Assembly (NCBI RefSeq): GCF_000685155.1
Contig: NZ_JMIY01000001.1
Coordinates: 169,579 to 203,641, forward strand
Direction: 5' to 3'
Length of the DNA: 34,063 nucleotides
Source: Candidatus Methanoperedens nitratireducens
GTDB taxonomy: Archaea > Halobacteriota > Methanosarcinia > Methanosarcinales > Methanoperedenaceae
Shown here: positions 96 through 26,277 of the stretch, piece by piece
How positions within the stretch are numbered: position 1 is the first letter of the stretch
Layout of the letters: each line of letters opens with the position of its first letter
Translations under genes and position numbers: made by a program
The notes under the pieces: generated by a model
What the model was told of the DNA's origin: nothing
What the model saw: the letters and a program-made list of their open reading frames with translations, nothing else
Database searches by the model: none

Positions 96-3000
96 GTTTC
101 AATCCTTGTTTTGTTGGATGTCGCTCTTGAATACTACCCCTTTCCTCGTTCGCTTTAGAACATCTGGTTTCAATCCTTGTTTTGTTGGATGTCGCTCTTG
201 AATAGCGTAACGAGCAAATCGAGCAGGGTAGATAGTGCCGTTTCAATCCTTGTTTTGTTGGATGTCGCTCTTGAATTATAGATAGAACCGAGATCAAAAA
301 TAAGGAAACCAGTTTCAATCCTTGTTTTGTTGGATGTCGCTCTTGAATATTACTGTTGCATTCTTATCTTTCTGAAGCGCCAGGTTTCAATCCTTGTTTT
401 GTTGGATGTCGCTCTTGAATTGTAGTTTATGCATCTTTTGGGGTTCATGCCTCCTGCGTTTCAATCCTTGTTTTGTTGGATGTCGCTCTTGAATAAATAT
501 ACTTCTGCCATTTATATCACCGACTATCTAGTTTCAATCCTTGTTTTGTTGGATGTCGCTCTTGAATCCTGGCCATTCCTGCGGACTCGTTTTTCCCCAA
601 CCAGTTTCAATCCTTGTTTTGTTGGATGTCGCTCTTGAATTGATATGATTCTACTCTTTTCATTTTCTAACATTGAGTTTCAATCCTTGTTTTGTTGGAT
701 GTCGCTCTTGAATTTTATCGAGCAAATGAGCGAACTGTATCCTGATTCGTTTCAATCCTTGTTTTGTTGGATGTCGCTCTTGAATCCATAGCGGAACGGC
801 TAACGCTGCCGTGAAGTATATGTTTCAATCCTTGTTTTGTTGGATGTCGCTCTTGAATCATACCAGGCATGCCTTTACAACCATCCATACACACAAACAA
901 ATTTCGTTTCAATCCTTGTTTTGTTGGATGTCGCTCTTGAATCGGGTTTCCGTGACACTTATTTATATTTATTCATGAGTTTCAATCCTTGTTTTGTTGG
1001 ATGTCGCTCTTGAATCCTGGGAGTGGGGAAAAAACACTAAGACACGTCATTCCGTTTCAATCCTTGTTTTGTTGGATGTCGCTCTTGAATTATGCAGCTT
1101 GGTATTGTTCACCCTCCAAACATTTTGTTTCAATCCTTGTTTTGTTGGATGTCGCTCTTGAATTGCAGTATTGAACAGTGAGTGGAGAAATGTATCTTTA
1201 TGTTTCAATCCTTGTTTTGTTGGATGTCGCTCTTGAATTCCACGCGTGAGGTCATCGCGGCAGGTACCTCGTGTTTCAATCCTTGTTTTGTTGGATGTCG
1301 CTCTTGAATAGATGGATAAGGAGGTTTTAAAAGATGGATAACGAATGTTTCAATCCTTGTTTTGTTGGATGTCGCTCTTGAATAAGCATCCCGTGCTGCG
1401 CAAGGCGGTTGAGCTCGTGTTTCAATCCTTGTTTTGTTGGATGTCGCTCTTGAATTGGATCACCTGCGTATGATGTATGATAGCACTCCCGTTTCAATCC
1501 TTGTTTTGTTGGATGTCGCTCTTGAATGCACATCACATGCCAGGAGTGCGTGAGGGATCTCAGTTTCAATCCTTGTTTTGTTGGATGTCGCTCTTGAATT
1601 CTAGAACCTCAGACATTTAAACGCCAGCCAACAACCTGAGTTTCAATCCTTGTTTTGTTGGATGTCGCTCTTGAATTGGTGCTCATATGTCTTTTCGTGT
1701 GAAATTTGACAGTTTCAATCCTTGTTTTGTTGGATGTCGCTCTTGAATTTGTATAAGGTCTACCTGTTTTTCGACCGATACAGGTTTCAATCCTTGTTTT
1801 GTTGGATGTCGCTCTTGAATTATGGTGCTCATATGTCTTTTCGTGTGAAATTTGATGGTTTCAATCCTTGTTTTGTTGGATGTCGCTCTTGAATAATCCC
1901 ACAGGTTACATACATGCAATAGTATATATATGTTTCAATCCTTGTTTTGTTGGATGTCGCTCTTGAATGCTATGGGAGGTAATGCGGGCTTACCCGCATC
2001 CTTGTTTCAATCCTTGTTTTGTTGGATGTCGCTCTTGAATTCTCCTTTTTCTACAAGTTCTTCCGCCTGTCTTTTGTTTCAATCCTTGTTTTGTTGGATG
2101 TCGCTCTTGAATGCCTCTGCCCTATAGCTTGCAAGCGTCTTGCCGTTGCGTTTCAATCCTTGTTTTGTTGGATGTCGCTCTTGAATTATGGGGAGTGATC
2201 CGACAAGGAAACTTCCATCGAGTTTCAATCCTTGTTTTGTTGGATGTCGCTCTTGAATGTCGCAACGCCCCCGGGGCTACCTTAGCGTATCAGCTTGTTT
2301 CAATCCTTGTTTTGTTGGATGTCGCTCTTGAATAAGGAAAGTCGTTGAGCTGCAGCACAGACTCAGCATGAGTTTCAATCCTTGTTTTGTTGGATGTCGC
2401 TCTTGAATGGCACCGGGGCCGTTGCGACAGCGCAGTAAGACAGCCGTGTTTCAATCCTTGTTTTGTTGGATGTCGCTCTTGAATTAAAAGGTAATTTCCT
2501 GGTAGGATCCCTTACAAGTTTCAATCCTTGTTTTGTTGGATGTCGCTCTTGAATCCAAGAACCGGATCTGCCAAGAACAAGATCTCTAGGTTTCAATCCT
2601 TGTTTTGTTGGATGTCGCTCTTGAATCAACGCATAACGAAACACCTATTATTATCAGGCCCTGTTTCAATCCTTGTTTTGTTGGATGTCGCTCTTGAATG
2701 GTATAACGGCAGATGGAAACTGGAGAATCATAAGTTTCAATCCTTGTTTTGTTGGATGTCGCTCTTGAATTCAGATGCTACATGCGACCTGAAGCCAAAG
2801 AAACTTGGTTTCAATCCTTGTTTTGTTGGATGTCGCTCTTGAATATATGGAAAATCAAGAACCAGAAAACCAGGAAACAGTGTTTCAATCCTTGTTTTGT
2901 TGGATGTCGCTCTTGAATTCATTGAGACTACGATTGCACTATGTCCAAACTGCCCGTTTCAATCCTTGTTTTGTTGGATGTCGCTCTTGAATGCGATACT

Positions 3001-4313
3001 ATAGGAGATTCAGGGCTCAGGGTCTTTAGTTTCAATCCTTGTTTTGTTGGATGTCGCTCTTGAATTAAACGACTTGCGATATTTGTACCACCAGGACAGA
3101 CGGGTTTCAATCCTTGTTTTGTTGGATGTCGCTCTTGAATAGTAGTATCGACAACCCCGGACTTCTCAGCTTTTTCGTTTCAATCCTTGTTTTGTTGGAT
3201 GTCGCTCTTGAATGCGATAGCCTGAAGGATGGTGATATAGACAATATTATGTTTCAATCCTTGTTTTGTTGGATGTCGCTCTTGAATACGCTCCCACAGT
3301 CCTGACATCGTTTATCCCATTTCTGTTTCAATCCTTGTTTTGTTGGATGTCGCTCTTGAATCTTCTCTCTCTGTCTGTAAGAAGCTTCTTTTTTAGTTTC
3401 AATCCTTGTTTTGTTGGATGTCGCTCTTGAATGCGAATGTTGCTATTACGTTAGGGGTAGTGGCTCCAGTTTCAATCCTTGTTTTGTTGGATGTCGCTCT
3501 TGAATCTTTCGGTTCAGGATGTTAGGAATGATTTAGCTATGTTTCAATCCTTGTTTTGTTGGATGTCGCTCTTGAATAATTCGTACTTCGCATAAGGAAC
3601 AGGACTCCCAGACTCCCGAGTTTCAATCCTTGTTTTGTTGGATGTCGCTCTTGAATCTTAAAACGTTATCGAATAAGCCCATGTTAGCACCCTGTTTCAA
3701 TCCTTGTTTTGTTGGATGTCGCTCTTGAATTCAAAAAAAACAGTCCAGACAGATCTATCTAAACAGTTTCAATCCTTGTTTTGTTGGATGTCGCTCTTGA
3801 ATAGGCTGTAATCTTCCCGGTCGGTCTGCTGTGCCTCGGTTTCAATCCTTGTTTTGTTGGATGTCGCTCTTGAATACCATTCAAAAAAGGTTTCGTCTGT
3901 ATGCTACCCAGTTTCAATCCTTGTTTTGTTGGATGTCGCTCTTGAATACTAAACCGTAAATCTAAACGGTCGCCTGTATTTCTGTTTCAATCCTTGTTTT
4001 GTTGGATGTCGCTCTTGAATTCAAAAAGATGGAAGAGGCGCAAAAGGCAGAGAAGGAGTTTCAATCCTTGTTTTGTTGGATGTCGCTCTTGAATGCTGCT
4101 TTTTCTCTTCTAGCTATATCCCTTGCTTTATGTTTCAATCCTTGTTTTGTTGGATGTCGCTCTTGAATCATACGGGTTTTATGCGTAGAAGGATTATAGA
4201 GGGGTGTTTCAATCCTTGTTTTGTTGGATGTCGCTCTTGAATGTGCAGATAGACAGCCAGGTAAGTATTCAGATCAGTTTCAATCCTTGTTTTGTTGGAT
4301 GTCGCTCTTGAAT
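96..4313 (-). CRISPR. Type I-B CRISPR array, 58 repeats and 57 spacers
   Basis: I count 58 copies of a 37-bp repeat starting GTTTCAATCC and ending CTCTTGAAT on the + strand. No mismatch was seen, including in the terminal copies at 96-132 and 4277-4313. Read on the minus strand each repeat ends in ATTGAAAC, the usual 8-nt crRNA 5' handle of type I-B, so transcription and spacer order run from 4313 towards 96. Newest spacers should therefore be near 4313, next to cas4. Spacers are mostly 33-39 nt; outliers are 859-905 (47 nt), 3578-3619 (42 nt) and 1600-1639 (40 nt). The repeat can form a short stem (ATCC/GGAT) just before the presumed Cas6 cut. Spacers 1677-1711 and 1821-1857 share 33 identical bases. 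Short apparent ORFs inside the array are translations of the repeat and are not genes. Confidence 0.98.
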
Positions 4314-4421
4314 AGCACAAATTTTCGCCTATTCAGGGCAAAATAGGCATTATTATACCTTAATTTTTGCGGTTAAAATTCTTACTGCAAAATTATTGAT
4401 TGGTTTATAAGGATAAGAAAA
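4314..4421 (-). promoter_or_regulatory. CRISPR leader with TATA box and repeat-proximal hairpin
   Basis: This A+T-rich 108-bp stretch lies between the cas4 stop codon and the first-transcribed repeat. On the minus strand it carries CCTTATAAACC (TTATAAA core at 4404-4410), a good archaeal TATA box that would start transcription near 4380. A second AGGTATAATA at 4351-4360 is weaker. A perfect 7-bp inverted repeat (GCCTATT at 4327-4333, AATAGGC at 4342-4348, 8-nt loop) lies 13 nt from the repeat, where leader signals for Cas1-Cas2 integration are expected. Leader identity is inferred from repeat polarity and position. Confidence 0.75.
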
Positions 4422-5027
4422 TCACATGCAGATGTTGCTGTAACAGCAATCCAGACATTTATTCTTATTCTTGGTCTTACCTGGATAAAAGCCTTTGTCA
4501 ATGATATCAAGGATCTCATTTATGATCTCGATTCCTCTCTTGAGGTCTTTTTCTGTAAAATTAACCTCTTCAATTCGGTTATTGCTTCTTGTAAAGCATA
4601 TAAACCCTTTTTTAACATTGATATTATAGTTCTCTTGTATCATTATAGCATGCAGGACAAGCTGGAATTTATAGGTCTGATAAATCTTATCCTTGAATTC
4701 TGCGAACTTGTATTCAAAAGGTGCTGCCGTCCCATCATCAAGGAAAAGAACCTCATCCACTATACCTTTAATATGGTTCTTTTTCGATGCGATGAACACA
4801 TTCAGCTCTTTTCTCACAACACCTAACTTCTTCCTCAGGTATTCGGGGTTTGTTATCCGCTTCTGCTCATGTACCTCCCTCCCTTTAAGTACCTTAAAGC
4901 GTGATTCCTCATGCTGCGGGATATCAAGGCAGTGCATAAAATAGATAAAGCGCGGGCAGAAGAGGTACTCAAGCACATCGGAAATATTGATTATCGTATC
5001 CCCGCCTGTCATGGTATCAATACTCAA
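4422..5027 (-). CDS. cas4: CRISPR-associated exonuclease Cas4
   Basis: Cas4 is a RecB-like Fe-S nuclease that trims prespacers and helps select PAM-bearing ends for Cas1-Cas2. The 201-residue protein shows the family pattern: C24 in YLFCPRF, H53 in GREVHE, D91 in GIVDEV, E105 and K107 in FEYK, and a C-terminal Cys cluster (C191, C194, C195, C200) that with C24 can hold a 4Fe-4S cluster. The frame opens with TTG, overlapping the cas2 stop as TTGA. An ATG at 5012 (MTGGDT...) is equally possible and would leave an 11-nt gap; neither has a clear ribosome binding site. It is the last cas gene before the leader, completing a cas1-cas2-cas4 adaptation block. Confidence 0.95.
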   Translation of the reverse strand: MSIDTMTGGDTIINISDVLEYLFCPRFIYFMHCLDIPQHEESRFKVLKGREVHEQKRITNPEYLRKKLGVVRKELNVFIASKKNHIKGIVDEVLFLDDGTAAPFEYKFAEFKDKIYQTYKFQLVLHAIMIQENYNINVKKGFICFTRSNNRIEEVNFTEKDLKRGIEIINEILDIIDKGFYPGKTKNKNKCLDCCYSNICM

Positions 5028-5317
5028 AAGAATTTAGTCAGTACTTCATCGCTAACAAGCTCTTTATCAAAAGCCTGGCCGAGTAGCTTTACCTTCCTGA
5101 AAGACTCATCATCCATAGGGAAAACATATACCGAGTCAACATCAGGATCAATGATCTCTTCGCATTCCAGAGCCAGGGAATCCCTCTCATTCGCATTGAG
5201 CGTACCAAGAAAAACGCTCTTCTGCACGCGGTATAACCCTTTATCAAGGCATATGCGGGCGACCTTACTGCGCGCGCTGTTCTCTACAATATCATAAACT
5301 ACCCATACCATTGTCAT
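5024..5317 (-). CDS. cas2: CRISPR-associated protein Cas2
   Basis: Cas2 is the structural dimer of the Cas1-Cas2 spacer integrase. The 97-residue product has the ferredoxin-like start MTMVWVVYDI with the conserved Asp at D9, followed by ARSKVARICLDKGLYRVQKSVFLG, typical of the family. I chose the ATG at 5317 because AGGAGGG lies 6-7 nt upstream (5324-5330). The open frame runs back to 5362, but that would put an unrelated 15-residue extension before the canonical N terminus. The ribosome binding site overlaps the cas1 stop codon, which indicates translational coupling. Confidence 0.95.
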   Translation of the reverse strand: MTMVWVVYDIVENSARSKVARICLDKGLYRVQKSVFLGTLNANERDSLALECEEIIDPDVDSVYVFPMDDESFRKVKLLGQAFDKELVSDEVLTKFF

Positions 5318-5328
5318 TTTATTCCCTC

Positions 5329-6297
5329 CTATTTTATCAGACCATTGGCTATGCTGTGGCATTCCATCTGGATTGTGTTCCTGATCTTGATATTGCGCCC
5401 TCTGTATTCGATCTCTCTATCAAGGGTCTCATTGACCGCTTTGATCAGCACTGCCTTGCCGTCTTTATTCAGGTACAATCCGCCCGGGATCTTATCGAAC
5501 AGGCCATCATGAACCTGTTTTTTCGAAAAGAGGTTAACAACAGTCCTGTCGATATGTATCCTGAATATCTCTATAAGATCGAACACAAAGGATTTCTTGT
5601 TATAATTGTCGGTATGCAGGAAGCCCATGTAAGGATCAAGCCCTGCAATTATGCACGCTTTCTCAACCTGGGAATACAGGATACCATAGCCGTAGTTGAG
5701 AAGACAGTTGAAGGCATCCTGCGCAGGATTGCGGCTTCGGCCGCTGAACTTCCAGGCATCGGGCATGATGTTGCTCAATGCCTCAAAATACGTAAGGGAT
5801 GCCATACCCTCTGTTCCCATGATCGAGCCGCGCTTCCCATCAAGTGAGCCTCTCATGCTCATCAGGTCATCCTTTAATTGCTCAAGCTTCGAAATATACG
5901 GTGTCAGCATATCATAGGCATCAGGACGGTTCTTTTTCAGGTCTTTTAAGAGAACCGTCTGGTTCTCAAGCTTCTGCACGATCCAGCCGCGCGCCATATT
6001 GAATCCCACAATTGAGGCCCCGGCCTCCAGTTGCCGGCGCCGGATAAGTGTTGTGCTCCCCAGCTTTGAATGCCATACCCTCCCGTACGGGTTACCGTTA
6101 AAATCAAGAAAAACTATGTCGATATTGTTCTCAACCGCGAACTCGATGGCATCTGTAGTGATGGTCGCGGATGTGGTGATAAGTATGCTGTCCACTTTGT
6201 CAGCCGAGACCTCAAGGTTCTTATCATCGTTCTTTACAAGGAAACAGTTCTTTTCCTTCTTGAGATACGCGCCGCGCGTGTTTATTACAAGCTGCAT
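5329..6297 (-). CDS. cas1: CRISPR-associated endonuclease/integrase Cas1
   Basis: Cas1 is the metal-dependent integrase that inserts new spacers at the leader end. The 322-residue protein has a beta-rich N-terminal domain (about 1-85) and an alpha-helical catalytic domain. Likely metal ligands are E163 (GTEGMAS), H228 (GFLHTD) and E243 or D240 (FDLIEIFR). Length and motif spacing are normal for the family. The ATG lies one base after the hepT stop, so cas1 is expressed as part of the same operon as the HepT/MntA pair. It is followed 11 nt later by cas2. Confidence 0.97.
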   Translation of the reverse strand: MQLVINTRGAYLKKEKNCFLVKNDDKNLEVSADKVDSILITTSATITTDAIEFAVENNIDIVFLDFNGNPYGRVWHSKLGSTTLIRRRQLEAGASIVGFNMARGWIVQKLENQTVLLKDLKKNRPDAYDMLTPYISKLEQLKDDLMSMRGSLDGKRGSIMGTEGMASLTYFEALSNIMPDAWKFSGRSRNPAQDAFNCLLNYGYGILYSQVEKACIIAGLDPYMGFLHTDNYNKKSFVFDLIEIFRIHIDRTVVNLFSKKQVHDGLFDKIPGGLYLNKDGKAVLIKAVNETLDREIEYRGRNIKIRNTIQMECHSIANGLIK

Positions 6298-6298
6298 G

Positions 6299-6682
6299 TC
6301 AATACTCTGCTATTTTTACAATGATCCCTTTTAGCTCATCGATTCTTGATAGCGCTTCGTTTATGATATCCATATCGAGGTGGTTATACCTGTGGACAAT
6401 GAAATTCCGCACACCGTTCATCTGCCGTAAAAAATCCGCCTCGCTTGTTGAGAGAATCCCCTCACGGGTGATTCTCTCAATGTTTGTTGCGTCATCCTCG
6501 ACCTTGAGTCCCATATCCCTTATTTTCATGGCTATTATGTCCATCGAGATCTCGATAGCTACCTCAAGTGCATACAGCAAAGCGCGCTCAGTTACTTCAT
6601 CCTCTATCCTGTGGGTTAAAATGAACTCCTCTTCTCTGATGAATCTCTCAAACTTTGAGAGGTATCTGTCTTTTTGAGTCAA
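6299..6682 (-). CDS. hepT: HepT-like HEPN toxin (probable RNase)
   Basis: This 127-residue, mostly alpha-helical HEPN protein carries R92-NFIV-H97-R-Y99, an exact match to the RX4HXY motif of HepT toxins. Arg and His form the RNase site, and the Tyr is the residue that MntA antitoxins AMPylate in characterised pairs. The start is TTG at 6682, supported by AAGGAGG at 6690-6696 and a 7-nt spacer. Its first 35 nt overlap the 3' end of mntA, the usual coupling of this pair. The stop lies one base before the cas1 ATG, so the toxin is locked into the CRISPR operon. Family assignment is firm; a link to CRISPR immunity is inferred only from position. Confidence 0.9.
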   Translation of the reverse strand: MTQKDRYLSKFERFIREEEFILTHRIEDEVTERALLYALEVAIEISMDIIAMKIRDMGLKVEDDATNIERITREGILSTSEADFLRQMNGVRNFIVHRYNHLDMDIINEALSRIDELKGIIVKIAEY

Positions 6683-7109
6683 GCCACTTCCTCCTTGTTT
6701 TTTCCATCTCTGATACTGTGCAAAAACTGTTGTTCATAATCCTGTGCCTCATATCCTCCCATTTTTTTCTGAAACCATACAGATAATAAGAAATCTGGGG
6801 TTCATTACCGAAGATTATCATATATTTCTCGATAACGCCCATCTTAACGTAGAGCGGCAGATCTTCAAATATTTTTACATCATACCTGCCGCCGACTTTT
6901 GTTAATATCCGGGTTAAAACTTTGCGTGTTTTAGGCTTGATGATGCAGATATCTATATCTGAGCGCTCATCAGCAGTACTCCTGGCATATGAACCGTAGA
7001 GTAAAATGCCTTCAACCTCACCGCTTATAAACTCAAATTCCTTCTTCAGTCTGGCAATGAGGGCATCAGGAGATAACTTATCTTTCGCTGGAGCTTTTTT
7101 CTCGCTCAT
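6648..7109 (-). CDS. mntA: MntA-like minimal nucleotidyltransferase antitoxin
   Basis: This 153-residue minimal nucleotidyltransferase has the canonical GSX10DXD motif: G39-S40, then D51-I-D53, with a probable third acidic residue near D77. In characterised HepT/MntA modules MntA neutralises the HEPN toxin by adding AMP to the Tyr of RX4HXY, and that Tyr is present in the neighbouring HepT. I prefer the ATG at 7109 (MSEKKAP...), which forms an ATGA overlap with the cas6 stop. An in-frame GTG at 7121 would add four residues. The C-terminal tail overlaps the start of hepT. The tight coupling on both sides makes this part of the cas operon. Confidence 0.9.
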   Translation of the reverse strand: MSEKKAPAKDKLSPDALIARLKKEFEFISGEVEGILLYGSYARSTADERSDIDICIIKPKTRKVLTRILTKVGGRYDVKIFEDLPLYVKMGVIEKYMIIFGNEPQISYYLYGFRKKWEDMRHRIMNNSFCTVSEMEKTRRKWLDSKRQIPLKV

Positions 7110-7765
7110 GGCTGGCTGCACCCCCTCACAGCGCCGAAACCTCTTGAAACTGATTTCCCTATGCCGAGGTTATCAGGTATCAGGAAGTTGGCGCAGAATC
7201 CTCCTGTGAAGGTCATCATGTTCACATCCTTAAGCCTGTTTTTCCTGATCCTGACCCGGAGATCGCATTTTATCGTACCAGGCACCTGGTAGTCCAGGGA
7301 TTTTGACATGGAGAGCAGGTTCCCGATAAGCGTTTTTCTCAGGAATTCATTTCTCTCATCGCTGCGCAGCCCGTAGTACCTCATATAGTTCTCCTGGTTC
7401 AGCGCCAGCCACGGGGTAGCGAACTCGTACGAATATATCATGTCAGCCAGCCCGAATTCCTGGTTCCTGACAGAAATTCCCTTCTCAACGATCTCATACA
7501 TATCCTCGCCAAGTTTTATTTCATCATATTTATCATAGATCTCTTTTAGAACCCCGGCGCCGTCATTGATGCCGATCACCATTGGCGCGCCGTCTATCAT
7601 CTTGTACTGCACCAGCGGATAACGGTAGATGAGCTTATCGGCGCTGTGCTGGTGGAGCAGGGAGTACTCGTTGAATTTTGTGGCGAAGAAGCCGCGTAAC
7701 TCTGAGGCGGAGGCGCGGATCGGGCGGGAGGAGGCGAGGGTGAGGGTGAAGGTTTTCAGGAGCAT
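7106..7765 (-). CDS. cas6: CRISPR pre-crRNA endonuclease Cas6 (intact copy)
   Basis: Cas6 cleaves the repeat RNA to leave the 8-nt ATTGAAAC handle and may stay with the crRNA. The 219-residue protein has the RAMP fold signature, including the C-terminal glycine-rich loop G201-I-G203...G209-F-G211. H38 and H40 in LLHQHS are candidate catalytic residues. The ATG follows the stop of a truncated upstream cas6 copy by 6 nt, and the gene ends in an ATGA overlap with mntA. Its first 182 nt are duplicated upstream at 8013-8194. The start of the gene is noticeably G+C-rich compared with cas3, cas5, cas7 and cas8b. Confidence 0.95.
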   Translation of the reverse strand: MLLKTFTLTLASSRPIRASASELRGFFATKFNEYSLLHQHSADKLIYRYPLVQYKMIDGAPMVIGINDGAGVLKEIYDKYDEIKLGEDMYEIVEKGISVRNQEFGLADMIYSYEFATPWLALNQENYMRYYGLRSDERNEFLRKTLIGNLLSMSKSLDYQVPGTIKCDLRVRIRKNRLKDVNMMTFTGGFCANFLIPDNLGIGKSVSRGFGAVRGCSQP

Positions 7766-8012
7766 ATCTTTTCACATTTTGAAGCACTTTGGTCTGTTGC
7801 AGCATCCGGCGCCGGGGTTGCGACCCCAGACCCCGGTGAGGCGCCGCTCTTGAGCGGGGTTTTCTATAAGTCGATGGCTGCATGAAAATCTTTTTAGAAT
7901 GCTCGGCGCCACGATAGGGAACTGATGCAGTTTCGGTTTATCGAAAATATAAACCGCAGATGAACGCAGATGAACGCAGATTGGTCGGGTTTTCATGCTC
8001 TCCAAGATGCCC
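7766..8012. other. Unique sequence between the two cas6 copies
   Basis: This segment separates the duplicated 182-bp blocks and matches no Cas6 coding sequence. It contains a G+C-rich dyad (GGCGCC arms with GGGGT/ACCCC inside, about 7807-7846), a small perfect hairpin CCGCTC-TT-GAGCGG just after it, and an interspersed repeat at 7951-7982. The minus-strand frame of the truncated copy stays open across it. Confidence 0.6.
7951..7982 (+). repeat. Interspersed repeat AACCGCAGAT/GAACGCAGAT
   Basis: The sequence has AAACCGCAGA followed by two tandem TGAACGCAGA units and TT. The same end motifs occur in inverted orientation at 14309-14410, where they bracket about 80 bp containing two hairpins. 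Short repeats with this consensus resemble REP/MITE-like elements. The two copies flank the interference gene block in opposite orientation. Confidence 0.6.
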
Positions 8013-8194
8013 GGCGCGCCGTCTATCATCCTGTACTGCGCCAGCGGATAGCGGTGGATGAACCTATCGGCGCTGTGCTGGTGGAGCAGGGAGTACTCGT
8101 TGAATTTTGTGGCGAAGAAGCCGCGTAAAAGCGAAGCCGAGGCGCGGATCGGGTGGGAGGAGGCGAGGGTGAAGGTGAAAATTTGAAGATTCAT
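8013..8194. repeat. Direct repeat unit, partner of 7584-7765
   Basis: The two blocks have the same length (182 bp) and both run from GGCGCGCCGTCTATCAT to the cas6 start codon. They differ at scattered positions and most near the start codon; a central run covering GTGGAGCAGGGAGTACTCGT and its flanks is identical. The divergence shows the duplication is not brand new. Confidence 0.85.
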
Positions 8195-10422
8195 ATTATT
8201 AAACTTGAAACCTGAGTATCTTCTGTAAATTGGGCTCCAATTACACTATCGTATTTCATATCACAAAAGGTAATGTCGCCGTGTTGCTCTTTATGCTTCT
8301 GAATATACCAATAGGGCATTTTTACTTCGTACAATCTGCGCTGTGAAGGGGATGAATTCAATACTTCATCTTTATAAATCAATGGAATTACAGGAACCTG
8401 AAGATATTCAATTTTTCTTGTTGTATCATTTTTATCTTCTCGATTCGGATTATCAAAAATTCCCATGAGTCTTTTTTGTGTTACAGTATATTGCTTACTC
8501 GCATCAACAAAATATTGCGATTTTTCAATTTCAATTCCTGAATAAACATCCTCAACAATTTTAATAAGGTCATTTTCTGTTAATTTTTCTGGGGAAATTT
8601 TGAAAATTTCAAAAGATCGTTCTAATAATTTGCTATCTTCAGGGTCATAAATATTTTTCGATATATCAGATGCTTTGAATATTGATATCCAACTATCTGA
8701 TTTCTCTCGTTTTCGATTAACTCTTCCGGCCCTCTGAACGATTGCATCAGGCGGTGCACACTCACAAAACATCGTATCAAAATCAATATCGAGAGAAACT
8801 TCTACAACTTGAGTAGCAATCAAAAGTTTTTGATTGTCAATATATTTCTCTTTTTCTTTCCTATCTCTTAAGATGAATTTAGAATGATAACACATCGGAT
8901 TTAAATATTCTAATTTTTTGTAAAGCTCCTGACATTTTGCCACATTGTTAACCACAACTAGTGTTTTTGTGCCTCTATTAACTGAATTTTCAATTTCTGA
9001 AATTGCATCATCAATATTTTTATCAATTATTTTATAACTATTTCTGCATGAATTCAATAAAGTTTCATCTCGTATTATATTAACATTTGGAAGGGTTTTT
9101 GAAAACAAGTTAATCAAATACTCTGGCAGAGTTGCGCTCATAAGCATGAAACGCGTTCCTAATTTCGAAAAGTGTTTAATTGATTCGATAATAAGTCCTA
9201 ATGTCCATGAGTCGTATGAATGAATCTCATCGATTATTATTACGCTGTTGGCTGCATTTGCTTCTATCAATGCCCATTTCCCTGAATTAAACCCTGATGT
9301 TAATAACTGATCAATTGTAGCAACAGTTGCTGGTTTAATAAAAGACTTATCAAAAAGGACGTTTCTTACATTCTCAGGATTATCTTCTTCGTCTTGAAAC
9401 ATGAAAGAAGCCGTGGAGTGTGTAAGCCCTACATTTCCTTTGCCAAAATAATCTTCTAATCTCGTAAAAATACTGTTTGCAGTAACCATTGTAGGCAAAA
9501 GATAGATAAGTTTTCCTCCACCCATATTTTGTAAATTATTTAATGCCCATAATAGAGATGCTTCTGTTTTTCCGCTTCCGGTTGGCGCAATCGCAATGAC
9601 ATTACATAAGGTACGACCGCATTCTTCTTGGAATGGTCTAAGGCCATTAAATTTTATTTTTTTCTCTACGCATCGTTTTTCAATCTCTTTAAATAAGTCA
9701 TCAGCATGCGTTTTTAAGGAGTAATTAACATCTATTCCGGCTGATCCATGCCAATCAGCGTAATGGAGGATTGCTTTTAATAGTAAATAGGTGATTCGAA
9801 TTGCCTGTGGGTTTTTATAATCTTCACATATTTTAGTAAAAGCACCATCGTAGCTGATTAATTTAGTAACTTCAACATAAGGGTTACAATTGAGAATCGA
9901 TATTTTTGGAAATGAAAAACCTTCTTTTTCAAAAATTTTTTCAGCCTGTATTATTGCAAGTTTTATTCCTTCATCACAATAATTAGGTTTTTCACTAACA
10001 CCTTCCCTTGAAAATGATTGTAAAATAGGATCTATTTTTTTGTGATGCCCTAAAATTGCTAGAGCCTCAATCGGTAATTTACCAATCAACTGTCCTTCTT
10101 GTTTAAATAAAGCTAAACCACCTAATAAAGCAAAAGGAAAAGATACTAGTTCATGTCTGTAATTTTCCCGTTTATTAAATCGTTCACCTTTTCGCTTTGC
10201 TTGCATCATCCTCTGAAAAGGTTCAATATTTTTACCAATATCATGTAGCACAACCGTTAAAAGTGAGCTTTTTAAAAAACGTTCCTCGCTGAATCCAAAC
10301 TCTTTACATACTCTCTGAATTAGACTCTTTTTAGCTATTACGGTCTCTTTCCAAGCTTTATACGCTGCATTAATGTGAACGTCATATAGTTGATCTGGTT
10401 TAGCCCAAAAAGTAGTGTTCAT
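8191..10422 (-). CDS. cas3: CRISPR-associated helicase/nuclease Cas3
   Basis: Cas3 is recruited by the Cascade R-loop and unwinds and degrades target DNA. The 743-residue protein has an N-terminal HD nuclease domain (H60-D61 in VVLHDIGKN, H90, H126-H127) followed by a superfamily 2 helicase. The helicase shows Walker A APTGSGKT, the DEIH box in IIIDEIHSYD, SATLP, and motif VI QRAGRVNR near the C-terminal third. The HD and helicase domains are fused in one chain and no motif looks broken. The ATG forms ATGA with the cas5 stop, and the gene ends in ATGA with the truncated cas6. It is A+T-rich. Confidence 0.97.
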   Translation of the reverse strand: MNTTFWAKPDQLYDVHINAAYKAWKETVIAKKSLIQRVCKEFGFSEERFLKSSLLTVVLHDIGKNIEPFQRMMQAKRKGERFNKRENYRHELVSFPFALLGGLALFKQEGQLIGKLPIEALAILGHHKKIDPILQSFSREGVSEKPNYCDEGIKLAIIQAEKIFEKEGFSFPKISILNCNPYVEVTKLISYDGAFTKICEDYKNPQAIRITYLLLKAILHYADWHGSAGIDVNYSLKTHADDLFKEIEKRCVEKKIKFNGLRPFQEECGRTLCNVIAIAPTGSGKTEASLLWALNNLQNMGGGKLIYLLPTMVTANSIFTRLEDYFGKGNVGLTHSTASFMFQDEEDNPENVRNVLFDKSFIKPATVATIDQLLTSGFNSGKWALIEANAANSVIIIDEIHSYDSWTLGLIIESIKHFSKLGTRFMLMSATLPEYLINLFSKTLPNVNIIRDETLLNSCRNSYKIIDKNIDDAISEIENSVNRGTKTLVVVNNVAKCQELYKKLEYLNPMCYHSKFILRDRKEKEKYIDNQKLLIATQVVEVSLDIDFDTMFCECAPPDAIVQRAGRVNRKREKSDSWISIFKASDISKNIYDPEDSKLLERSFEIFKISPEKLTENDLIKIVEDVYSGIEIEKSQYFVDASKQYTVTQKRLMGIFDNPNREDKNDTTRKIEYLQVPVIPLIYKDEVLNSSPSQRRLYEVKMPYWYIQKHKEQHGDITFCDMKYDSVIGAQFTEDTQVSSLII

Positions 10423-11159
10423 TGGAGGACAACCTTTTTGCCATCTATGATATAACCCTCAATTGATTTTTCAACAACTATGGGCGTGCTAACAAAAGTA
10501 AATGACTTTCGCTCAATAACTCTCCTTTCATCTCCTTTAAACTCAAATCTTGTTGGTAGAAGAAATACTTGTGGAGTATAGATTGTTTGAGTTATAGGAA
10601 TTAAACTAAAATCAACATCGGGCTTATAGGATTTTGAAACATCTTCAGGTAAAATCGTATACTCAAATTGATTAAGTTTCTCTGCTTGTAATGTTATAAT
10701 GTTAGAGATTGTATAAATCTTGAGAAGATCATCACTATTTCCTGCTGTTAAAGCATAAACCGGTGAGAGCATTGCATTTCTCAATTCTTCAAGAGGGTCG
10801 AGATTGTTAGAGGCGAAATATATTATAAAATCATTATAGCAAAGATATTCACGAATCAAAATACTATAATGTCTGCGGTTTTTTATATCCTCACTTGTAT
10901 AATTTTTTTCCTTACCAGTTAGCTTCCTGTAATTCCAGAGATCTTTCATCATGCCTTTATGTTTACCGTAAATACTAACTAAAATTTCATTTTTATCGGT
11001 ATATTTATGTGCATTTTCTAAGTTCAATCCTAAAGCTGCACCTATCATGCCGATAATTGTTGTTTTTGGTGGTAAAGGTAATGTTTGATGGAAAGTATGT
11101 GTCTCAGGTACACGGAAAGAGGCGGTAATTGCAATCCCTTTAATTGAAAAAAGGAACAT
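10419..11159 (-). CDS. cas5: CRISPR-associated protein Cas5 (type I-B)
   Basis: Cas5 is the RAMP subunit that caps the crRNA 5' handle in Cascade. The 246-residue protein starts with the typical beta strand MFLFSIKGIAITASFR, followed by the conserved LPLPPKTTIIGMIGAALG segment of the Cas5 N-terminal domain. It starts 9 nt after the cas7 stop, with AGGATAGG as a ribosome binding site, and ends in an ATGA overlap with cas3. Since a dedicated cas6 is present, Cas5 is expected to be structural and not the processing nuclease. Confidence 0.93.
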   Translation of the reverse strand: MFLFSIKGIAITASFRVPETHTFHQTLPLPPKTTIIGMIGAALGLNLENAHKYTDKNEILVSIYGKHKGMMKDLWNYRKLTGKEKNYTSEDIKNRRHYSILIREYLCYNDFIIYFASNNLDPLEELRNAMLSPVYALTAGNSDDLLKIYTISNIITLQAEKLNQFEYTILPEDVSKSYKPDVDFSLIPITQTIYTPQVFLLPTRFEFKGDERRVIERKSFTFVSTPIVVEKSIEGYIIDGKKVVLQ

Positions 11160-11168
11160 ACCTATCCT

Positions 11169-12053
11169 CTATACATAATGTTGATCTATCCATTTAGCTA
11201 TTTCATCAAAAGCATCTCCGATAGACTTTGAATTTTCTATATCGCCTATAAAGAAGCCTTTTCGTACCCCAATTACCGAAGATACTATTTCTGAATTGTA
11301 ATCTTTTAAAGTTTCTTTTATCATATCAACATTGAGTTTTTTCCCTTCAACCTGAACACTTTCGAGAAAGATCGGATTCTTGGTTTTAAGAATGGCAGCC
11401 GCAATAAATTTTGGAGAAATATCTGCAAGAAATCGAGTTTGTCTGCCAGATGCCCATAGATTTTTTACTGCTGAAAGTAGGTCTTTTACTCTTGCAGCTT
11501 TTTCTTTATTATCTAAGTCTTTTTCAAATCCATCGCCTGAGCCGACTCTATCAAGTTCGATAAGAATCGTACCTCTGTAAAGACCGGAATGAATTTCAGT
11601 CTCAAATATGTTTGGGTCGCCGCCAGATTTTACACCCATATAATTTGTACCAAAATCAAGATCACCCTGATAAGAATTAAGAGCTATTAAAGGAGACACT
11701 CGAACAACAGAAGTGCGTTTAGTAGCTTTTCCTTTAGTTTTTCCTTCTGCTCCTTCGGTTCCCATATATCCAAACAAATCATCATCAATATACTTATCAG
11801 GTTCTTGTTTAGTCGTAGCTGCTCCTTTTGATATTGATGCAGCAATCCCTTCTGAGAGCGGTCTTCCTAATACTTCCAGTTGATTTCTCAGTGCTCTACG
11901 GACAGCCTGAGAAGAAACATACGGGAATTGTTCTACACCAACTGAAATTTTTTTAATGCTTGATATATTATCTGTTTCTTTATCCGATCCATTTAACGAG
12001 GCAAATGACACCGGCGTTAAATATGTCAATGTCAATGCTTTTGCATTTTTCAT
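11169..12053 (-). CDS. cas7: Cascade backbone Cas7 (Cst2/DevR family)
   Basis: Cas7 polymerises along the crRNA to form the Cascade backbone. The 294-residue protein has the Cst2/DevR-like layout: N-terminal LTLTYLTPVSFASLNGSDKE, the VEQFPYVSSQAVRRALRNQ helix, then a long insertion with DDLFGYMG and TSVVRVSPL, and GRQTRFLADISPKF towards the C terminus. This family is the hallmark of subtype I-B loci of the Tneap kind. The ATG overlaps the cas8b stop as ATGA, and AAGGAGG lies 7-8 nt upstream inside the cas8b coding end. Confidence 0.94.
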   Translation of the reverse strand: MKNAKALTLTYLTPVSFASLNGSDKETDNISSIKKISVGVEQFPYVSSQAVRRALRNQLEVLGRPLSEGIAASISKGAATTKQEPDKYIDDDLFGYMGTEGAEGKTKGKATKRTSVVRVSPLIALNSYQGDLDFGTNYMGVKSGGDPNIFETEIHSGLYRGTILIELDRVGSGDGFEKDLDNKEKAARVKDLLSAVKNLWASGRQTRFLADISPKFIAAAILKTKNPIFLESVQVEGKKLNVDMIKETLKDYNSEIVSSVIGVRKGFFIGDIENSKSIGDAFDEIAKWIDQHYV

Positions 12054-13774
12054 TGTTTTTCCTCCTTGATTTTAATATTAGTATCCGTATTTTGTTCTTT
12101 TCTATTCTCAGCATTGAAAGTATTTAATGCAGCAATCATGCAAAATTGCTTAAATTCAGCAAAATTATCTCCAATAGCCTGTCCTTTATTGTATAAGTCA
12201 GCAGTTACTAATGCTCCATGTTTTATCTGAATTCTATTAATTTCATTAAGAAAATCTTCTTGTTTTCTTGTTTTCCTCAATCTGAAAAGATCTCCTTTGC
12301 CTTTCTTTCCGCTTGGGCCAACACTTTTTCCAATTGTCTTCCCCAAACTAACCGCTGTATCAATTATTTCTTGATTCATTTTGCCTCCATCTTCATTTAA
12401 TATTTTTTCATATAATATAACAAAATCATTTAATTGTCTAATATATTGGATTTTTGATTTATTAATCCTATAAACGTGTTGTTCTACAAGTTCTACGATA
12501 CTTTGCTTTCGTAAAATCCTTTCACATATTCTATTTCTTACAATGGTTTTACTTTCGTTCTTTGGTTGATCAAACTCGATTAAAAGAGTCATTGTGTCGT
12601 TTATACTGATCTTATTTCTTTCAAGGCGATCTAGTAATCTGAATAAATAAACTGAATCCTGAAAAGGCCAGATCATTTTTCCCATTTGTGTATCACCGAG
12701 AGCTTCAGTATACATTACAAAAAATTCAATGGGAGCTTTACAAAGTGTAATATCAAAAAGTTTTTCATAATCAAGTTCGTAATCCTCATCTGTTGAACCT
12801 TTAGAGGTTTTTCTAATCATAACAATTCGGTACAGTGAATACAAAAAAGCAAATAATTGCTCAAATGGTTTCTGAAAATAGCCGCCAAGATTATGCTTGA
12901 AATTTCGAAGTAAATTTTGATCTTCAATTTTAATAGCTCGTAAACTACTAAATATATCATTCATTTTTTCTAAGCTGGATGAATACGGAAAATATATATG
13001 GTAACTGTCATTACTTATCGTATAGAAGCCATTAACAGGTACAAATTTTCCAATAAAATCACATTTCCAGCAGACTTTCTCAGGTCTACCACCGGCTGAG
13101 TTGAATGATAATGCCCCCGAAGAACCAGAAATCATTGGAAAAACTGTACCACCAATCTCACTTAATGAATGTGAATAATCCCCACAAATAAAACATTTTC
13201 CTTTGGGTTTTCCTTTTTTAAAATTTATTTCAACTTTAGGTTGTATTGCATTTGGTCCATCTATAAGTAAACTTGAAGACCCAATTTTTAGGTTATTCTC
13301 AACAAGAAATTTATCAAGTCGCTCTTGTAGATGTGCATAATCAATTGGAAGAATTTCCTTTTTTATTTTCTTTCCAGATTCAATTACCTCTTTTTTCTCA
13401 TATTTTACTTCATCTTTAGTATACCTCGGAGCTTTATTAAAAATCAAACCAGCGATTCCCATCGATTTTACTTTTGGAAATCGAACAAATTTATCCGCTT
13501 TCGAATCATAATAAAATCCAGCGTTCTCCCTTTTTTGTTTATCTGTTGAAGTGTTGTAGTATTGAGATAGCAGAGACTTGTAGGTTTTGTGAAAAAATTT
13601 ATCTAAATTAGATTCAGTTCCTTTGAATAAAACCCCATTATCATTCAATTCTATTTCAACTCCCATTTCTTCGGGATTTTCATCATTAGCAATCCGATAT
13701 AATCCCAATAGTCCCGAATCCATCCAGAAATGATTTAGTTTAGGAAAATTAACTTCTATAAAACCTTCATTCAT
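12050..13774 (-). CDS. cas8b: Cascade large subunit Cas8b (Cst1, CXXC-CXXC type)
   Basis: This is the first gene of the operon, a 574-residue large subunit expected to recognise the PAM and anchor Cas3. The Cst1 family mark is present: C194-FI-C197 and C235-WK-C238, a likely zinc site. The N terminus (FPKLNHFWMDSGLLGLYRI) matches the start seen in Cst1 proteins. The C terminus is Lys/Glu-rich (NRKEQNTDTNIKIKEEKQ). The gene is A+T-rich with many Lys, Asn and Ile codons, unlike the cas6-mntA stretch. The ATG at 13774 has GAGGCG upstream as a weak ribosome binding site. Confidence 0.92.
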   Translation of the reverse strand: MNEGFIEVNFPKLNHFWMDSGLLGLYRIANDENPEEMGVEIELNDNGVLFKGTESNLDKFFHKTYKSLLSQYYNTSTDKQKRENAGFYYDSKADKFVRFPKVKSMGIAGLIFNKAPRYTKDEVKYEKKEVIESGKKIKKEILPIDYAHLQERLDKFLVENNLKIGSSSLLIDGPNAIQPKVEINFKKGKPKGKCFICGDYSHSLSEIGGTVFPMISGSSGALSFNSAGGRPEKVCWKCDFIGKFVPVNGFYTISNDSYHIYFPYSSSLEKMNDIFSSLRAIKIEDQNLLRNFKHNLGGYFQKPFEQLFAFLYSLYRIVMIRKTSKGSTDEDYELDYEKLFDITLCKAPIEFFVMYTEALGDTQMGKMIWPFQDSVYLFRLLDRLERNKISINDTMTLLIEFDQPKNESKTIVRNRICERILRKQSIVELVEQHVYRINKSKIQYIRQLNDFVILYEKILNEDGGKMNQEIIDTAVSLGKTIGKSVGPSGKKGKGDLFRLRKTRKQEDFLNEINRIQIKHGALVTADLYNKGQAIGDNFAEFKQFCMIAALNTFNAENRKEQNTDTNIKIKEEKQ

Positions 13775-25860: not shown

Positions 25861-26277
25861 ATGAATGATAATACTATTAATGGTAATCCTGAACCACCAA
25901 CCCCGGAGCCTACACCAACCCCAATGCCTCCGCCTATACCGACACCAATACCAACCCCGGGCCCTCCACCCATACCAACCCCGTCACCTACAGGACCTAC
26001 GGCACCTGCATTCATACCAACACCTGCACCAGCCCCGACTGCCAACCTGACTTTTATTGTAACTGATAACGTAACCAATTTACCCATTCAGGGTGCCACT
26101 GTCTCAGTGGAGAATGTTAAAATCAATACAGACAGGACTGGAACAGCGGTATTCACTAACATAGCCCGCAGGTCTCATAAATATACCGTAAGCAAGGCAG
26201 GATACAGGCAGGTTTCAGGCGTCGTTAATGTGACCGGTGATATAACAGTGCCAGTTAAGTTAGTGCCTGGAAAATAA
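25861..26277 (+). CDS. Pro-rich protein with C-terminal carboxypeptidase-regulatory-like domain
   Basis: The 138-residue product has a Pro/Thr-rich low-complexity segment (about residues 9-60, repeats of TPTP, PPIPTP) followed by a beta-sandwich domain of the CarboxypepD_reg/PEGA-like type (LTFIVTDNVTNLPIQGATVSVEN, TDRTGTAVFTNI, KYTVSKAGY). Such domains usually stand outside the cell, but no signal peptide or membrane anchor is present. It may be cytosolic, or its true partner may supply targeting. Function unknown. Confidence 0.75.
   Translation: MNDNTINGNPEPPTPEPTPTPMPPPIPTPIPTPGPPPIPTPSPTGPTAPAFIPTPAPAPTANLTFIVTDNVTNLPIQGATVSVENVKINTDRTGTAVFTNIARRSHKYTVSKAGYRQVSGVVNVTGDITVPVKLVPGK

Follow-up and report, generated by a model that had tools for sequence, protein, structure and literature searches.

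What does a toxin–antitoxin pair do in the middle of a CRISPR–Cas operon? The question is raised by a stretch of 34,063 nucleotides (nt) from Candidatus Methanoperedens nitratireducens, hereafter called the window, in which two small genes, mntA and hepT, lie between cas6 and cas1 of a type I-B operon (all coordinates are positions in the window, and its genome is designated G000). We put at about one in two the probability that this is an ordinary type VII (HepT/MntA; class I HEPN/MNT) toxin–antitoxin system that was captured at the cas6–cas1 joint and is carried as the leading pair of the cas1–cas2–cas4 block, where it probably stabilises the locus. A role of the pair in keeping the immune locus is unproven.

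Both genes are read from the minus strand. The mntA gene (6648..7109) encodes a predicted adenylyltransferase antitoxin of 153 amino acids (aa) with a GS-X10-DXD motif, and hepT (6299..6682) a predicted HEPN RNase toxin of 127 aa with the motif R92-X4-H97-X-Y99. The ATG of mntA (7107-7109) lies within the stop codon of cas6 (TGA, 7106-7108), forming an ATGA junction; mntA and hepT overlap by 35 nt, between the mntA stop at 6648 and the TTG start of hepT at 6682; and a single base separates hepT, which stops at 6299, from the ATG of cas1 (6295-6297). These coordinates and junctions had been claimed in an initial annotation of this DNA, and they proved exact to the base. A ribosome-binding site for hepT, AGGAGG, is located inside mntA (6690..6695, minus strand), and by inspection both this site and the TTG start are kept in all seven in-operon orthologues with a readable start. 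With the antitoxin encoded first, the toxin would be read from this TTG inside the end of mntA.

The identity of the two proteins is supported by families, motifs, and fold. MntA contains G39, S40, D51, and D53 of the nucleotidyltransferase motif together with a third carboxylate, D77, all of which are invariant in 15 homologues, and R92, H97, and Y99 of HepT are invariant in 14 homologues; the initial claim that both signature motifs are complete therefore stands. In Pfam, MntA matches PF01909 (NTP_transf_2; 3.5e-10) and HepT matches PF01934 (HepT-like; 2.2e-20), both exceeding the curated cut-off. Searches of the PDB with the single sequences gave no match for either protein. A profile of the HepT clade matches the Shewanella oneidensis HepT structures (6m6u, 5yep, 7bxo) and the HEPN protein of Aphanizomenon flos-aquae (7ae9), aligning the R, H, and Y with those of S. 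oneidensis HepT and placing Tyr99 opposite Tyr104, the residue that is AMPylated in that protein; with the MntA profile, nothing more specific than a generic nucleotidyltransferase was matched. The predicted structure of HepT, with a predicted local distance difference test score (pLDDT) of 93, superimposes on the three S. oneidensis structures with template modelling scores of 0.8-0.9. The pair is thus very probably a genuine type VII system in which, as motif, fold, and family suggest, MntA would AMPylate Tyr99, next to the active site of HepT, and so silence the HEPN RNase.

How far is this arrangement conserved? Among 18 Methanoperedens genomes with a readable cas6–cas1 interval, eight carry the pair between the two genes (G000, G002, G004, G014, G019, G022, G030, and G028, the last with only the tail of hepT, catalytic motif included, ahead of cas1 at a contig end). 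Wreckage of the pair remains in three (G003, G017, G020), and seven have no pair in the interval (G005, G009, G012, G015, G016, G025, G029), with cas6 and cas1 still overlapping in several of them. The order cas6–mntA–hepT–cas1, which the initial annotation had proposed to seek in related genomes, is therefore present beyond the window, and its absence from all type I-B relatives is refuted. The recurrence of this order in other species of the genus excludes chance, and the comparison indicates that it is inherited rather than accidental. Ratios of nonsynonymous to synonymous substitution rates (dN/dS) are 0.05-0.14 for hepT, 0.10-0.26 for mntA, 0.08-0.16 for cas6, and 0.03-0.07 for cas1, many of the dS values being near saturation; both genes thus appear to be under purifying selection, with ratios close to that of cas6. 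The trees do not bear out a strictly parallel divergence of the pair and Cas1: G022 groups with pair-free loci in the Cas1 tree and with pair-bearing loci in the tree of the pair, a discordance that suggests recombination at the cas6–cas1 joint. The Cas6 tree is poorly resolved.

To which of its neighbours does the pair belong? In every in-operon copy read, hepT abuts cas1; a tight ATGA coupling to cas6 is found in the window, and one further species comes close to it. The cas6–mntA gaps of G014, G022, G004, G019, G002, G017, and G003 have a TATA-like element in common (consensus near AACTTTAATAATATATACCAAAGTT). The same element lies directly ahead of cas1 in G020, from which the pair has been lost, and a similar stretch precedes AbiEi in G046, where AbiEi–AbiEii occupy the cas6–cas1 slot. 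The gap is almost nil in the window and in G030, where an exact search of the operon strand for two TATA-type octamers found none. The promoter-like element between cas6 and the pair in most relatives assigns the pair to the cas1–cas2–cas4 block. The initial description of a pair built into the cas operon accordingly holds for the window and related loci, but in most relatives this element parts the pair from cas6. The pair also occurs with two versions of the I-B effector, one in the window and G002 and a Hmari-like one in G014, G022, G030, G004, and G019. Since it is kept with differing effector modules, its association is with the cas6/adaptation block rather than with any single Cascade, which makes the proposed function as an abortive back-up for a failing Cascade less likely. 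On this comparison, the pair moves together with the cas6/adaptation block, and its site is one where effector, type III, and toxin–antitoxin modules get swapped.

The cas6–cas1 joint indeed seems, from the gene content of these loci, to be a preferred site for such modules to dock. Besides AbiE, type I-B loci hold here a complete type III-C module (Cmr1, Cmr6, Cas10c, Cmr4, Cmr5, Cmr3) in G092 (L100 6651-14220), a III-F-like module in G036 (L104 4622-12084), and a similarly placed untyped stretch in G099 (L107 9435-13638), its size as in G092. At the neighbouring cas3–cas6 joint, eight Methanoperedens genomes have a second, different HEPN/MNT pair; AbiE is present in five, as well as in G033, and G040 carries a third HEPN/MNT type. 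At least one toxin–antitoxin system is present at one of the two joints in 14 of the 18 Methanoperedens loci; the same queries found none at these joints in 11 Methanosarcinaceae loci. In the tree, the sister clade of the pair includes Methanophagales-type archaea, with the orders cas8b-cas7-cas5-cas3-mntA-hepT-(cas1 C-terminal fragment)-cas2-array in LH_S14 and mntA-hepT-cas4-cas1-cas2-array in AUK217. Judged by gene order, both have the pair at the joint that it occupies in Methanoperedens, in a different I-B lineage whose Cas1 and repeat also differ. Further relatives of the pair are solitary, with housekeeping genes as neighbours, and no relative of the window HepT was found to be encoded on viral contigs at the sensitivity used. 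In more distant archaea of the phylum, HEPN/MNT pairs also lie beside cas genes, as cas1-cas2-hepT-mntA in G189 (L160 7505-9750) and as mntA-hepT preceding a type I operon in G112 (L162 13291-14171) and G126 (L164 13294-14189).

Several copies of the toxin have been disarmed. In G017, mntA is intact and hepT is reduced to its first and last few codons; in G003, mntA is frameshifted and hepT lacks the R-X4-H stretch; and in G020 the last six codons of hepT remain. In the second pair, the catalytic motif of hepT2 has been lost by internal in-frame deletion (G029, G030) or truncation (G020), and each of these genomes retains an intact mntA2. Together, six broken hepT copies in cas loci have lost the catalytic motif; in four loci the toxin is broken but the antitoxin intact, and no locus has an intact hepT with a broken antitoxin. 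This pattern suggests the direction of loss expected if HepT is toxic and MntA protective. Stand-alone HepT-like genes of the genus keep the motif in 58 of 60 sampled cases, a sample biased to high scores. A higher frequency of detoxified hepT within the cas locus (6/18 versus 2/60 stand-alone, Fisher p 0.0015; p 0.01 against a generous by-eye estimate of 11/122) was considered and is not claimed, because score determined which stand-alone genes were sampled, and the search used for these would miss three of the six broken copies within the locus.

How could such a pair stabilise the locus? Loss or replacement of the block would be costly, as cells losing it would be left with the toxin or its effects, and defence by dormancy under infection may add a second effect. 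That this cost is the main role of the pair is a view we hold tentatively. There is a precedent in S. oneidensis HepT/MntA, which is reported to stabilise a plasmid in Escherichia coli (PMC4621449). The initial annotation had argued that any loss of operon expression removes the antitoxin together with Cas6 and Cas1. This is true, but the toxin goes too, so that no toxin is unleashed by that alone; a guard effect therefore needs a toxin that outlives its antitoxin.

A number of points weigh against this explanation of a captured type VII pair that stabilises the locus. Both proteins score below the cut-offs of 60 bits of the NCBIfam equivalog models (NF047751 and NF047752; 54.5 and 34.5 bits), HepT being a near miss, although such a cut-off is a score threshold of the database and not a functional feature of the HepT/MntA family. 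The structure model of MntA (pLDDT 60) was too poor and was left unused. No de-AMPylating enzyme is known (PMC7641770), and HepT that is already AMPylated may remain inactive after gene loss, weakening post-segregational killing. Furthermore, the pair is absent in 7 of the 18 loci and its toxin destroyed in 3, with CRISPR–Cas kept in all ten; any guard effect is therefore dispensable.

Two other explanations, both of which we regard as unlikely, take the same facts in different directions. The pair could be an infection-response module, a dormancy switch tied to adaptation: infection would drain ATP or block synthesis, MntA could no longer modify new HepT, and tRNAs or other RNAs would be cut, so that growth stops while Cas1–Cas2–Cas4 take up new spacers, or the cell is dead before virus can be released. 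In all in-operon Methanoperedens copies the pair immediately precedes cas1 (and in Methanophagales cas4-cas1-cas2), a position that fits this idea, as the pair is then probably co-expressed with the adaptation genes. For a HEPN–MNT pair adjoining a type I-D system, a role as ATP sensor has been proposed (as reported in PMC11676413), and dormancy "to buy time" for adaptation has been proposed in general terms (PMC3506569). Against such a coupling speak the many homologues of the same clade that stand alone beside housekeeping genes, and the absence of the pair from nearly half of the loci in which cas1-cas2-cas4 are retained.

Alternatively, the pair could be a neutral or selfish passenger at a recombination-prone joint rich in repeats and partial cas6 copies, where pairs land and are hard to remove without rendering any service to CRISPR. 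Toxin–antitoxin pairs are frequent: the window genome alone has eight HepT-like genes, and 31 genomes of the genus yield 135 HepT-like matches. The presence there of dispersed repeats and of fragments of cas6, the many stand-alone relatives, and the repeated detoxification and loss are all in line with a passenger. It is less easily squared with 15 of the 135 matches, plus five AbiE loci, falling in one operon that makes up ~0.4% of the genome (sister loci are not phylogenetically independent, and the counts serve as description only), or with conserved junctions and dN/dS as low as that of cas6 over genus-wide divergence. A third proposal, that the pair is a domesticated regulator in which MntA modifies another protein (e.g. 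a Cas protein) with HepT as a partner rather than a toxin, is very improbable: G017 retains an intact mntA ahead of cas1 after deletion of most of hepT, and mntA2 persists beside a motif-less hepT2 in G020, G029, and G030, but orphan antitoxins are expected after detoxification, and the window HepT has lost none of its catalytic residues, its rate of evolution being as low as that of cas6.

The operon around the captured pair reads, on the minus strand, cas8b-cas7-cas5-cas3-(truncated second cas6)-cas6-mntA-hepT-cas1-cas2-cas4-array. Its full gene set confirms the type I-B setting named by the initial annotation and, by sequence, assigns the locus to that type: cas8b (12050..13774), cas7b (Cst2/DevR; 11169..12053), cas5b (10419..11159), cas3 (8191..10422), a full-length cas6b with both Cas6b domains (7106..7765), type I-B cas1 (5329..6297, one base past hepT), cas2 (5024..5362; the open reading frame (ORF) enters the Cas2 domain only at residue 18, and the true start is probably at ~5317), and cas4 (4422..5027), all on the minus strand. 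The CRISPR array (96..4313, minus strand) consists of 58 identical 37-nt repeats with the handle ATTGAAAC on the minus strand, and the region adjoining cas4 (4314-4421) is likely its leader. Two of its spacers (1677-1712 and 1823-1858), two repeat units apart, are near-identical and differ only near the end.

Between cas3 and cas6 (7768-8196) lies the truncated second cas6 ORF (7772..8194, minus strand), ATGA-coupled to cas3, which starts with ~64 residues of the Cas6 N-terminus and continues with unrelated sequence; it is 92% identical to the resident cas6 over 167 nt, after which dispersed repeats follow. Similar cas6 fragments are found after cas3 in G009, G014, G022, and G030, as if effector cassettes had been exchanged by joining at cas6. 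The repeats comprise two dispersed non-coding elements (7768..8012, no strand assigned) with 39 further partial matches in the genome. The two elements themselves span 7785-8004, for which the genome gives 40 matches; one contains AACCGCAGATGAACGCAGATGAACGCAGAT, and they recur at the cas3–cas6 joints of several relatives. They are also found near at least one stand-alone hepT (G000:C7:474240). A recurring 201-aa ORF, which in G014 separates cas6 from mntA and in other loci follows cas3, is judged to be probably a translated repeat and not a gene, because it is without a Pfam match and overlaps the dispersed repeats. Elsewhere in the window genome there is a second cas1 (G000:C1:507891-508727), and a further CRISPR–Cas locus is probably present. 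Within the window, imperfect short direct repeats of the ACCAACCCCGG type occupy 25896-25990 inside an ORF (25861-26277). Among the relatives, cas8b of G005 is split by ~1.4 kb with an opposite-strand ORF, probably a transposon insertion (L094 3235-6414), and the cas operon of G004 contains an RRXRR-HNH (IscB-like) gene beside the second HEPN/MNT pair (L042 6211-7767).

Loci with the pair, without it, with a disarmed toxin, or with another toxin–antitoxin system in the slot form a natural series in which the coupling of immunity to suicide or dormancy, an idea long under discussion, can be tested. Should toxin–antitoxin pairs indeed delay the disappearance or exchange of CRISPR adaptation genes, they would help to account for the persistence of costly CRISPR loci.

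How does the pair compare with known systems? S. oneidensis HepT/MntA (SO_3166/SO_3165) likewise combines an upstream GS-X10-DXD antitoxin with an RX4HXY HEPN toxin of the same fold; it shares ~18% identity with the window pair, which differs in its overlapping cistrons, the TTG start of its toxin, and its cas-operon setting. The type IV AbiEi/AbiEii system shares the cas6–cas1 slot in G046 and the cas3–cas6 slot in several Methanoperedens genomes, but it is an unrelated toxin–antitoxin family that was not found in the window operon. HEPN RNases encoded with CRISPR–Cas also include the CARF nucleases Csm6 and Csx1, which are activated by cyclic oligoadenylate via their CARF domain, whereas the window HepT is without a CARF domain and has a dedicated antitoxin.

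It is already known that HEPN/MNT constitutes a type VII system and that one such pair, in A. flos-aquae, lies beside a type I-D CRISPR system; its HEPN protein is reported to cut tRNA 3′ ends and to be di-AMPylated (PMC11676413). The window pair differs in being archaeal and type I-B, exactly between cas6 and cas1, co-directional, and kept across part of a genus. In the titles, abstracts, and selected passages of the literature found, there is no protein pair kept between cas6 and cas1 across a genus, nor an exchange of toxin–antitoxin types in this slot. Toxin–antitoxin guards of type I loci are known in RNA form: CreTA lies inside a type I locus and is proposed to make locus loss costly, with CreA reported to need Cas6 and Cascade to repress the RNA toxin (PMC12737573, PMC9458426, PMC10097628). 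No CreTA-like ectopic repeat was found in the window, the best match outside the array having 14 mismatches in 37 positions, although a strongly degenerate repeat could escape such a search. HepT/MntA would differ from CreTA in consisting of two proteins whose known mechanism needs no Cas protein. As a conjecture that is possible though doubtful, the effector/adaptation joint of archaeal type I loci may be a recurrent dock for unrelated protein toxin–antitoxin families, which would stand in for one another in guarding the adaptation block and which cells would repeatedly disarm by excising the active site of the toxin: a protein counterpart of CreTA.
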